Below, one piece after another: positions 2,096 through 48,281 of a DNA stretch of 64,000 nt. The stretch is from an uncultured Prevotellaceae bacterium (GTDB lineage Bacteria > Bacteroidota > Bacteroidia > Bacteroidales > Bacteroidaceae). Each line of letters begins with the position of its first letter. The first letter of the stretch is position 1. The notes beneath the pieces are model-generated. The model ran no database searches, had not been told where the DNA came from, and saw only the letters and a list, made by a program, of their open reading frames with translations. The position numbers and the translations under genes were made by a program. Location: contig CASGAM010000041.1 in NCBI GenBank assembly GCA_949299545.1, forward strand, positions 62,001 through 126,000, given 5' to 3'.

Positions 2096-3898
2096 TCAGT
2101 CGCGGTTGGCACGCTTGCGCTCCGTATGGTCGAGGATGATTTTGCGCATGCGCATGCTCTTTGGCGTCACTTCCACATACTCATCCTCGCGGATATATTC
2201 GAGCGCCTCTTCGAGCGAGAAGATGGTGGCCGGTACGATACGTGCTTTTTCGTCAGAACCGGAAGCGCGCATGTTGGTCAGCTGTTTGCTCTTGGTGACG
2301 TTGACTACAAGGTCGTTCTCATGAATATGTTCGCCTACAATCTGTCCGGCATAAACCGAATCCTGCGGTTCGATGAAGAATTTGCCGCGGTCTTGCAGGT
2401 TATTGATGGCATAGGCAAAAGCCGTTCCGCTTTCCAAGGCAATCATCACACCGTTGCTGCGGCGGGAGATTTCCCCCTTATATGGCTGGTATTCCTTGTA
2501 ACGGTGTGCCATAATGGCCTCGCCCTGACTGGCTGTCAACACATTGGTACGCAGGCCGATGATACCGCGCGACGGGATGTTGAACTCGATGTTGACGCGG
2601 TCGCCCTGTGTTTCCATTGAAACCATCTCGCCTTTGCGGCGTGTCACCATATCTATCATCTTGCTGGAGAATTCCTCCGGCACGTTAATGGTCAGTTCCT
2701 CTATGGGTTCGCACTTCACGCCGTCGATTTCCTTGAAAATCACCTGCGGCTGTCCCACCTGCAACTCATATCCTTCGCGGCGCATGGTTTCGATGAGGAC
2801 AGACAGATGCAACACGCCACGGCCTGAAACAATCCAGCGGTCGGTATAGCCTTCCTGGAAGGCGACGCGCAGAGCCAGGTTCTTTTCCAACTCTTTTTCC
2901 AGGCGGTCGTTGATATGGCGGCTCGTGCAGTATTTGCCTTCCTTGCCGAAAAACGGTGAGTCGTTGATGGTAAAGAGCATACTCATCGTAGGCTCGTCGA
3001 TGGTGATGGTCGGCAGCGGTTCCGGATTTTCGTAGTCGCAAATGGTATCACCGATTTCAAAGTTCTCAAGGCCGACGATGGCGCAGATGTCGCCCGAAGA
3101 CACTTCCGTCGTACGCTGGCGCCCCATGCCGGTGAAAGTATGCAGTTCCTTTATCTTGGTTTTTTCCTTTGAACCGTCGCGATGGCTGATGGTGATGTTC
3201 ATGCCCTCTTTCAGGGTTCCGCGGTGTACACGCCCTACGGCGATACGCCCGGTATAATTGGAATAGTCGAGGGAAGTGATGAGCATCTGCGGTGTTCCTT
3301 CAAGTTGCTCAGGTGCCGGAATATGTTCCAGTATCTGGTCCAGAAGATAATAAATATTGTCAGTCGGTGTTTTCCAGTCTTCACCCATCCAGTTGTTCTT
3401 TGCCGAACCGTAGATGACGGGGAAATCCAACTGGTCTTCTGTGGCATTGAGGTCGCACATCAAGTCAAACACCATTTCGTAAACTTCCTCGGGGCGGCAG
3501 TTGGGCTTGTCAACTTTGTTAACCACCACGATAGGCTTCAGGCCTATTTCCAATGCTTTCTGCAATACGAAACGTGTCTGCGGCATCGGACCCTCGAAAG
3601 CGTCGACCAACAGAATGCAGCCGTCCGCCATGTTAAGGACGCGCTCCACTTCACCGCCGAAATCGGAGTGTCCCGGTGTGTCAATGATATTGATTTTCGT
3701 GTCCTTATAGTTGATAGAAACGTTCTTTGAGAGAATGGTAATACCACGTTCACGTTCCAACTCGTTGTTATCCAGCATCAGCTCACCTGTTTGCTGGTTG
3801 TCGCGGAACAGGTTCCCCGCCAACAGCATCTTGTCCACCAACGTCGTTTTTCCGTGGTCTACGTGGGCAATAATCGCAATGTTTCTTATATTCTGCAT
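2096..3898 (-). CDS. typA: Ribosome-associated GTPase TypA/BipA
   Basis: This 600-residue protein is a translational GTPase of the EF-G/LepA class that binds the 70S ribosome and helps ribosome assembly and stress adaptation. Visible motifs are the P-loop AHVDHGKT near residues 11-18, [14 protein letters not shown] near 74, NKVD near 128, then EF-Tu-like domain II, EF-G-like domains, and the TypA C-terminal block [19 protein letters not shown]. Length matches the family (about 600). I start at ATG 3898 ([19 protein letters not shown]), the usual N-terminus, rather than an in-frame TTG two codons upstream. It is transcribed alone, with a TAACTTTG -7 box at 3930-3923 and a strong terminator downstream. 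Confidence 0.97.
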
Positions 3899-11655: not shown

Positions 11656-11706
11656 GTCGGTTTTGCCGTATCCTCCTACACACAGTTTGGACGAAAATAT
11701 ATTCAA

Positions 11707-12000
11707 TCCTTCACCTTGCTCATAAGAGCTATGTTCTCAATGAGTTACGGGTGAAGGACTTTATTATGCCTTGCTTTCGGATTGCCTTCACAAGGTTTTT
11801 CCGGCAGCGAGCGGTTCGGGCAAAATTTCCAACCTGTCGTGTCTGCAAAGCGACAGGTTGGAAATTTTGTTTCAGGCTTTGTAATTTCTGTCGCATGCAG
11901 AGATATTGGTGAAGTACTCCGTGAAGGAAAAACATTACAAGTCCTTCACCTGTAATCGTCTGGTTTTATGTCTGTTGTGAGTGAGGTGAAGGAGTGAAGG
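11707..12000. repeat. Intergenic repeat element, copy A
   Basis: This is one of three copies of a roughly 300-bp element in the window. The left end (TCCTTCACC at 11707-11715, partner GGTGAAGGA near 11750) and the right end (TCCTTCACC at 11942-11950, partner GGTGAAGGAGTGAAGG at 11985-12000) each form a hairpin. Between them is an 18-bp perfect stem at 11822-11839 / 11851-11868 with loop TGTCTGCAAAG. It fills the 434-bp gap between convergent genes. Just outside is a small palindrome CAATTTG-GAA-CAAATTG at 12001-12017. Nothing else was recognised in the gap. No transposase is encoded. Confidence 0.8.
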
Positions 12001-12089
12001 CAATTTGGAACAAATTGACTGTAGGGAGACAGGTTTGTATCCGGTTTGTGTTGCTTGGCCGTTGACAGACTGTGTATCTGGAGGAGCGG

Positions 12090-38223: not shown

Positions 38224-38344
38224 TGTCAAGTCTTTCTGATTACCTTATGCAACTTGTTTGTTTGATTCGGACTGAGAGAGGAACCTGTTTATGGTGACGT
38301 TTTCGACTGCCGATATATACAACATATAGTTTCCATAAAAAAGT

Positions 38345-38634
38345 ATTCACTCCTTCACCGGATGTGTAAACGATTGTGAATCTGAGCACTATGGATGAAT
38401 ACCTGTGTGGGATTTGCCATCAAAGTTCTTTGCCGGAAATGCAAGCGGTTGCAGCAAAAATTGCGACCTGTCGCTTCTGCAAGGCGACAGGTCGTGTTGT
38501 AGAAGCGACAGGTCGCGTTGCGAACGTCTCATTCCGGTTTGGATGAAATGCTGGTGAAACCTTCAGTAACAAAGTCCTTCACCTGTAATCTATAGATTCA
38601 CAATCGTTTATATATTCGGTGAAGGAGTGAAGGC
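38345..38634. repeat. Intergenic repeat element, copy B
   Basis: A 290-bp element lies between the HTCS gene and the GH30 genes. Ends are TTCACTCCTTCACC (left, 38346-38359) and GGTGAAGGAGTGAAGG (right, 38618-38633). An inner TCCTTCACCTGTAAT (38575-38589) pairs with the right end as in copy A. AACGATTGTGAATCT near 38369 on the left is the reverse complement of AGATTCACAATCGTT near 38593 on the right, so the two halves are long inverted repeats. The core has GCGACCTGTCGC (38463-38474), GCGACAGGTCG (38484-38494) and GCGACAGGTCGC (38505-38516). The flank at 38224-38344 holds nothing I recognise. Confidence 0.8.
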
Positions 38635-38778
38635 TTTTTGCGATAAAGTTGTTGTATGGGTAAGGGGGATTCCAGTCGGCTGTTATCCGTGAATCGTGAT
38701 GAGGCCGTTGGAGATGGAAGCCTGATAAACCTGCAAGGTGTTCATCCGGCTTGTATAAAGCTTGTGGTATAGTGATGT

Positions 38779-47743: not shown

Positions 47744-47898
47744 CTAAATAAAAATTTTACAAACAATGAACGTCGTCAGTCTGTTACATCATCAAAAAAA
47801 TATGATACATCAGGCTTGTTCCAGTGTAACAATATAAAAATAATCCTCTTCTTATAATACTGTCCCTATACCCAATACAGCAATATTTTTGAAAATAT

Positions 47899-48243
47899 CC
47901 TTCACTCCTTCACCAGTATATCTAATGAAAAAGAATACAGTGAGTTACAGGTGAAGGACCTCTTTTCCTCCACTTTCACAGTTGTTTTTTCTCTGTTCGT
48001 TTGTCCTTTTTGCTGCGACCGCACGCTTCAGAAAAAGCAAGCGGTCGCATTGTAGAAGCGAGCGGTCGCAAATTTTGCTGCGTGCGCTCGCTTTTTATGA
48101 GGTTAGAGATAAGATAGAAGTTTATTGTACGGGCTGTTGTGAATGGAAGAGATATGAAAGGATGATGAATGGCAGAAGAAGAAACATTCACCCGTAATAT
48201 GTTGTTTATATGACGCTTATGATATCTGGTGAAGAGATGAAGG
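47899..48243. repeat. Intergenic repeat element, copy C
   Basis: A 345-bp copy with left end CCTTCACTCCTTCACC (47899-47914), inner partner GAGTTACAGGTGAAGGAC (47942-47959) and a degenerate right end GGTGAAGAGATGAAGG (48228-48243) with inner ATTCACCCGTAAT near 48187. The core has GCGACCGC (48015-48022), GCGGTCGC (48041-48048), then the shared spacer TTGTAGAAGCGA and a second GCGGTCGC (48062-48069). It lies between the MG2 gene and the DUF3108 gene. Open frames across it on both strands look accidental. Confidence 0.78.
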
Positions 48244-48265
48244 TGTTTTTTGTAAGATTGTATGA

Positions 48266-48281
48266 CGCGCGCGTGCGCGCG
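48266..48281. other. Alternating CG tract, potential Z-DNA
   Basis: CGCGCGCGTGCGCGCG is 16 bp of strict purine-pyrimidine alternation in otherwise AT-rich DNA. It sits between repeat copy C and the DUF3108 terminator. Function unknown. Confidence 0.6.

Follow-up and report, generated by a model that had tools for sequence, protein, structure and literature searches.

Dispersed palindromic elements in a Prevotellaceae genome and other Bacteroidales, with boxes matching those beside a VapE-like helicase gene

The window analysed here, a stretch of 64,000 nucleotides from an uncultured Prevotellaceae bacterium, carries three intergenic elements, A, B and C, each consisting of two half-sites that mirror one another. 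Their limits and parts are as follows.

11677-12023, no strand: copy A, whole element, from outer TACA to outer TGTA
11700-11715, plus strand: left tandem box pair of copy A, degenerate, TATTCAATCCTTCACC
11745-11759, plus strand: left inner inverted box of copy A, TTACGGGTGAAGGAC
11831-11859, no strand: core hairpin of copy A, AACCTGTCG ... CGACAGGTT
11941-11956, minus strand: right inner box of copy A, GTCCTTCACCTGTAAT
11985-12000, minus strand: right tandem box pair of copy A, GGTGAAGGAGTGAAGG
38318-38656, no strand: copy B, whole element; in A and C the left TACA is 3 bases closer in
38344-38359, plus strand: left tandem box pair of copy B
38360-38394, plus strand: left variable arm of copy B, 35 bases, its middle part complementary to the right arm
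38463-38516, no strand: core of copy B, three GCGACCTGTCGC-type units
38574-38589, minus strand: right inner box of copy B
38618-38633, minus strand: right tandem box pair of copy B
47876-48262, no strand: copy C, whole element; right TGTA at 48259-48262
47899-47914, plus strand: left tandem box pair of copy C
47945-47959, plus strand: left inner inverted box of copy C, TTACAGGTGAAGGAC
48228-48243, minus strand: right tandem box pair of copy C, degenerate

A sequence-only reading of this DNA had described three structured elements, and the positions and ends that it gave were all recovered in the window sequence. Its positions hold, but its limits were drawn too tightly, since conservation continues about 24 bp further out on each side, to TACA and TGTA. 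The motif CTTCACTCCTTCACC, with at most three mismatches, occurs eight times in the window against 1.5 expected, a count reached in none of 100 shuffles, and six of the eight matches are ends of A, B and C. As had been noticed, A and C have the left inner arm GAGTTAC[G/A]GGTGAAGGAC in common, and A and B the right inner arm AGTCCTTCACCTGTAAT. The hairpin of the copy A core (11805-11873) also matches contig positions C29:60161, C18:26805, C6:27038, C34:25864 and others in the same genome that are not among the listed elements, as though the cores harboured another dispersed family of palindromes. Elsewhere in the window, a cobalamin riboswitch (RF00174, 96 bits) lies at 1332-1537 on the minus strand.

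The family is not limited to the three copies that had been proposed. In the genome to which the window belongs (G000; 2.32 Mb in 41 contigs, 79% complete), the outer box pair GGTGAAGGAGTGAAGG was matched 28 times with at most one mismatch and its reversed control once; for the inner box AGTCCTTCACCTGTAAT, with at most two mismatches, the counts were 23 and 2. These correspond to at least 23 elements, of which A, B and C are three; the further copies that the sequence-only reading had proposed to look for thus number at least 20. Both box pairs were recovered in 18 elements, with 290-494 bp between the outer boxes. Elements on contigs C22, C24, C11 and C33 have one end that is degenerate, missing or at the contig end, and one more lies on C8. 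Crude calls of open reading frames of at least 90 aa overlap 4 of 22 elements, including one of 94 aa in copy B.

Each half-site follows the same plan: an outer TACA, an A/T tract, two tandem boxes of about 8 bp, some 35 variable bases, an inverted box and then more boxes, with the other half as its mirror image. A column count over 40 ends places TACA about 24 bp outside, followed by TTT and AAAA tracts and CCTTCACTCCTTCACC, and on the inward side a weak T.TAA motif, TTA..GGTGAAGGA and a CTTTCA-like box. A TGTA motif is present in 32 of 36 ends in this genome, about 20 bp outside the boxes, and the base that follows it is T in 18 and G in 14. The A and T tracts sit at the two feet of the element hairpins. 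Alternating CGCGCGTACGCGCG-like runs occur just outside the TACA end at window positions 48266-48273, in some elements of the window's genome (L001, L012) and in seven Alloprevotella loci.

In GTDB genomes, 33 stretches matched a gapped pattern of the element. Of these, 28 come from one Tannerellaceae MAG (JAISZA, Nc350_bin62, G081) and one each from Nc350_bin136 (G082), Kf353_bin89 (G083) and Alloprevotella sp. Lung230 (G084); the Nc and Kf Tannerellaceae MAGs we take to be from termite-gut samples. The remaining two, from an actinomycete (L071) and an archaeon (L083), were set aside as unlike the family, having a compact palindrome and a shorter spacing, respectively. Box counts with at most one mismatch, relative to the reversed control, are 40/1 in the window's genome, 61/1 in JAISZA, 21/0 in Kf353, 63/3 in Alloprevotella and 3/2 in G082. 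The exact box is absent from 79 of 80 related genomes other than the window's own, including 16 of the 17 of the same genus; the remaining congener, G016, has a single isolated exact match, without the rest of the element. As part of an element, the exact box was seen in 1 of the 81 related genomes searched, the window's genome included. Different tandem palindromic repeats adjoin elements elsewhere, of CTACCTCAGAGGTAG type in Alloprevotella sp. Lung230 (L223, L227, L231, L235, L238, L241, L244) and of TGCTCCCGTCCGGGATAAATC type on the 3′ side of the single G082 element (L055).

The element-rich genomes share a partner gene. A vapE-DUF3874 gene, encoding a VapE-like AAA+ helicase, was found once in each of five such genomes (G000, G081, G083, G084 and G172, the last from another family than the rest), by PF05272 in the first four and by a VapE profile in G172, and in every one of the five an element or half-site of the same box type lies beside or around it. 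The arrangement is most complete in JAISZA (JAISZA010000042, L063), where two half-sites 2.37 kb apart flank divergent HU-HIG and vapE-DUF3874 genes, whose products are a 203-aa HU-HIG protein (PF18291, 3.7e-30) and a 413-aa VapE-like/DUF3874 protein (PF05272, 1.3e-26; PF12990, 1.6e-22). This unit has the same ends as the small elements but encodes HU-HIG and VapE, and neither gene is a transposase by Pfam. In Kf353 a half-site follows the vapE stop codon, and none occurs in the 654 bases available on the other side before the contig starts. In Alloprevotella an element ends about 217 bp before the vapE start codon, that is, on the 5′ side. In the window's genome one part of vapE lies on contig C4 and the other on C22. 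The distance from the gene to the element upstream of it is about 140-190 bp, according to which start codon is chosen, and no such boxes are found on the 3′ side. In G172 the element follows vapE. By rough arithmetic, the chance that vapE lies so close to one of about 10-60 elements in a 2-3 Mb genome is roughly 2% or less per genome.

In G082 one element of this type was seen, and the genome has only a sub-threshold PF05272 match, where there is a low-scoring array of different sequence; no CTTCAC-type boxes stand beside that gene. Nor do such boxes accompany the three vapE genes of the congener G016, two of which have other inverted repeats nearby; one of these genes, without CTTCAC-type boxes, is preceded by a perfect 35-bp inverted repeat with a 27-bp loop (L117 3133-3229, G016:C24). 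By the listed open reading frames, no HU gene was seen beside vapE in L112, L114 or the C22 piece of the window's genome. Upstream of vapE there are palindromic iterons of TTTCACAGCTGTGAAA or TTATCA type (L112 327-448, L113 907-962, L250 about 3700-3800), which occupy the gap to the HU gene if one is present; these are candidates for a second regulatory or origin site.

The association between dispersed boxes and vapE recurs with a second box sequence. A survey with the VapE profile found matches in 28 of 198 genomes of the order, the window's genome included, and G172 was chosen because its VapE was the nearest in this survey outside the window's genome. The box beside its vapE (ATCTGCAAC) has 32 matches in that genome against 1 for the control. 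They fall at 16 sites, including the one at vapE; inverted pairs with a span of 140-188 bp make up 12 of these sites, and the sequences inspected show the same half-site plan. The dispersed boxes are thus the same as the box beside the genome's own vapE in this lineage as well. Dispersal was seen in this one of the eight genomes searched with a vapE-side box type. Among the other seven, searched with one CTTACYAC-type pattern, five have boxes at vapE, one of these (G060) with one extra site that has one mismatch, and two gave no match. In G172 too a different repeat adjoins an element (L165): a query of one element with its flanks returned 132 matches, many of them to modules that lie beyond the palindrome.

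Tandem boxes on both strands, with a box of its own in each lineage, also stand directly 3′ of part of the order's vapE genes. Two-strand arrays scoring at least 4 occur in 11 of 34 windows of 300 bp 3′ of vapE, and the other 23 fall below the threshold; control windows taken from the same loci hold such an array in 6 of 367 cases (Fisher 2.7e-9). Arrays were already known from these loci when the score was designed, so that it describes more than it tests. The count began from 37 loci, three of which were dropped for want of 3′ sequence, and left out the vapE pieces of the window's genome, L249 and L252-L261. Among the control-window arrays, those of L114 and L250 and one of the two in L112 are themselves linked to vapE and lie on its opposite side.

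Spacing is better conserved in these arrays than the letters of the boxes. Counted from the outermost box, the first two boxes lie at 0 and +8/9; an inverted box comes at +48 to +54 and a forward one at +72 to +76, and others often stand at +83 to +97. This register holds in window copies A and C, in JAISZA, Alloprevotella and the vapE copy of G172, and in G192, G218 and G060, while the box itself changes by lineage (TTCAC, TGCAA, GACTAC, TTACAAT, TTACCAC). Deviations occur: window copy B has one additional inverted match, and in L165, a dispersed copy of G172, the forward box is at +93 and follows three inverted ones; by exact matching G074 and G208 are without the inverted box; near +75, G067 shows no forward box; in Kf353 all boxes after the pair are inverted; and Bacteroides finegoldii L250 has single boxes. 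Near-fixed spacing with changing letters suggests that a multimeric protein may read the boxes.

The hairpins formed by the elements could be taken to indicate a dispersed family of structured RNA genes. Folded as single strands, the copies have z-scores against shuffles of -10.9 (A), -12.9 (B) and -6.0 (C), and in the window's genome the variable arms, those of about 35 bases between box 2 and the inverted box, differ between elements, with the two arms of one element often the same sequence inverted. The element's own right arm is the best match of 18 in 11 of 18 elements, and the observed mean was reached by none of 20000 permutations. Identity within elements exceeds that between them only from about -5 to +60 (roughly 0.6 against 0.3-0.4 in the variable part); because the excess stops outside that interval, terminal gene conversion looks unlikely as its cause. 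An element of Kf353 (L061) resembles this pairing by eye. Arms oriented by arm type show no within-element excess, however, in 18 elements of JAISZA (864 of 5000 permutations) or in 10 of G172 (4955 of 5000), so that left-right pairing is a lineage trait and not a defining feature, and a universal left-right stem was rejected. Beyond foldability and the paired arm changes of the window's genome, little supports a structured RNA. Within that genome, wobble-type arm differences do not clearly favour a strand (27 vs 15 of 68, orientation being arbitrary); no Rfam family reaches its gathering score in the elements, copy A giving only microRNA-family matches, far below it; and the nearly fixed box spacing suggests a reader that binds DNA. 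An RNA gene family is thus very improbable.

The same compensating arm changes, and strong hairpins with A and T tracts at their feet, might be expected if the elements were host-maintained chromosomal sites, immobile and retained by selection, which serve as bidirectional terminators, as 3′ UTR structures or to titrate VapE. Gene context is in keeping with such a role: of the 20 elements flanked by called genes at either end, 8 have convergent and 12 tandem neighbours, and none has divergent ones, by crude calls that assign 1655 of 5719 intergenic bases of the window to divergent pairs. This bias is compatible with a terminator function and also with tolerated insertions, from which avoidance of promoters is likewise expected. 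Sites maintained by the host do not fit well with the near absence of exact boxes from the genus, nor with the 7 of 18 elements whose own right arm is not the best match, and we judge this explanation decidedly unlikely.

Direct signs of transposition, for which the sequence-only reading had proposed two checks, were not found. For copy A, the flanks lie on different contigs in all 15 of the 17 same-genus genomes where both matched. Comparison of flanks with the other loci, a set that included no Alloprevotella element, gave self-overlaps or shared repeats alone, and the genus of G172 comprises one genome. No target-site duplication stood out in 18 + 16 + 10 elements, whose exact termini are uncertain; the best excess was a 2-base match in 6 of 16 JAISZA elements (1.7 expected), with 3-base matches in at most two among the registers listed. 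Since neither an empty site nor a target-site duplication was found, we infer mobility from dispersal, patchy distribution and the result in G172.

In being short and intergenic, with terminal inverted repeats and tens of copies, the elements resemble MITEs, from which the lack of a detected target-site duplication sets them apart. It is unlikely that they are ordinary MITEs which an unrelated transposase, of DDE type for example, mobilises in trans, with vapE and HU as cargo or chance neighbours. Their occurrence as an exact-box element in 1 of 81 related genomes would agree with this, and the 2.4-kb unit may be read as cargo between transposon ends. Neither of its genes is a transposase by Pfam, however, and cargo does not explain why the vapE-side box led to a dispersed family with a different box in G172, or why vapE-side arrays exist in lineages without dispersal. 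The BrickBuilt MITE of Porphyromonas gingivalis has 23-nt tandem units and terminal inverted repeats like those of ISPg1/ISPg9, according to PMC4596501. Unlike it, none of 18 elements carries the terminal repeat CCGAAAGGTCTC with at most one mismatch, and TRF found no array in copy A.

The genome-wide pattern finds its closest analogy in REPINs and RAYTs, in which, as PMC3116915 describes them, paired inverted repeats are scattered and a partner gene has a matching repeat beside it. The elements are alike in being dispersed intergenic inverted pairs, with a partner gene accompanied by a repeat of matching type (PMC3116915, PMC3733652). They differ in that the partner is a VapE-like AAA+ helicase with DUF3874, an initiator-type protein, and not a Y1/HUH transposase; in the 290-494 bp between outer boxes and the tandem boxes at nearly fixed spacing; and in lacking a strict GTAG tag at the hairpin foot, where TGTA is followed by T or G. 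The gene that stands beside a repeat of the dispersed type is vapE and not a RAYT gene. PF01797, the Y1 transposase family, has no match in the window's genome (79% complete) or in Kf353, while JAISZA and Alloprevotella have one such gene each and G172 a weak, stop-containing match. Movement of REP or REPIN elements by a RAYT could account for the paired repeats, the partner gene and the ends at which G follows TGTA, and two of the genomes would possess the enzyme, but with boxes that match the neighbourhood of vapE such movement is extremely improbable. Of the MITE-like or REP-like element first suggested, the dispersed family stood, and assignment to a named REP/REPIN, RAYT or MITE class did not, with no Y1 transposase found in the 79%-complete genome of the window, no target-site duplication and no empty site. 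Because tested defining features did not turn up, we claim membership of neither the REPINs, the MITEs nor BrickBuilt.

Divergent HU-vapE pairs occur outside the element-rich genomes. Bacteroides finegoldii has two such loci, one of which (L251) has box-like arrays on both sides, by eye. In Parabacteroides distasonis (L252, NZ_OY725757.1) an HU gene and an unannotated vapE match in two pieces lie between rpsL and mutL, apparently the remains of an HU-vapE two-gene unit. The records of both species are labelled plasmids; that of Parabacteroides, which carries rpsL, fusA and mutL, looks chromosomal. More distant VapE relatives, at 26-28% identity, are annotated as 'virulence associated protein E' or 'DNA primase' in phages of Flavobacterium and Nonlabens; two scans for viral relatives gave none, and a third gave one locus at 24% identity. 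The VapE profile matches the solved chain 7pds, 'Similar to D. nodosus vapE' (6.8e-11), presumably a SaPI protein. A single-sequence AlphaFold model of VapE had a mean pLDDT of 35.7 and was discarded.

Phage satellites such as SaPIs have self-loading replication initiators, which the protein resembles. In SaPI Rep helicases a C-terminal domain recognises an iteron origin directly downstream of the helicase gene, according to PMC7581432, and VirE-family AAA+ domains have been proposed as helicases for the replication of mobile elements in PMC5862659. The likeness to a SaPI/SCC-type replication module lies in the VapE/AAA+ sequence family, in the two-strand short repeats directly 3′ of the gene in part of the lineages (the 11 of 34 windows above, and not at vapE of the window's genome or Alloprevotella), and in a C-terminal domain expected to read DNA, here predicted to be DUF3874 by comparison with PMC7581432. 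The system departs from such modules in that the origin-like array is also scattered as many stand-alone chromosomal copies. On the strength of the 7pds match and of what these two sources state, the vapE-side array is most likely an initiator-binding origin with DUF3874 as its reader. A literature search found no paper on DUF3874, and among the open PubMed Central papers listed by the searches, judged by titles and abstract openings, none linked VapE or DUF3874 to dispersed repeats.

The best explanation, to which we assign a probability of about 0.6, is that the elements are dispersed, non-autonomous copies of a VapE-recognised, origin-like site composed of two inverted iteron-like half-sites. 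Binding by VapE, opening or copying of the palindrome and a step of insertion are what we infer. The DUF3874 end of VapE would bind the boxes and the helicase would open the palindrome; copies arising from local opening or replication, as hairpin or single strand, might then settle elsewhere, mostly behind genes. The insertion step would proceed without a known enzyme, because VapE contains no nuclease domain by Pfam. Units such as the 2.4-kb HU-vapE unit would have given rise to the small elements as non-autonomous derivatives. A broader proposal, which we advance tentatively and hold as somewhat doubtful, is that these are members of a widespread Bacteroidales class in which a transposase-free HU and VapE-DUF3874 unit, bounded by inverted iteron half-sites, disperses these origin-like ends in the form of small palindromes, through copying driven by an initiator helicase, with box and DUF3874 co-evolving in each lineage.

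The layout, together with boxes that match the vapE-side site, points to an unrecognised kind of spreading repeat. If VapE does spread or maintain the palindromes, the result would be a system of dispersed repeats founded on an initiator helicase instead of a transposase. DUF3874 would then gain a testable role as a reader of boxes, and an explanation would be offered for the HU/vapE gene pairs of Bacteroides and Parabacteroides. The combination of near-fixed spacing with changing boxes makes the co-evolution of protein and DNA in this family directly testable.
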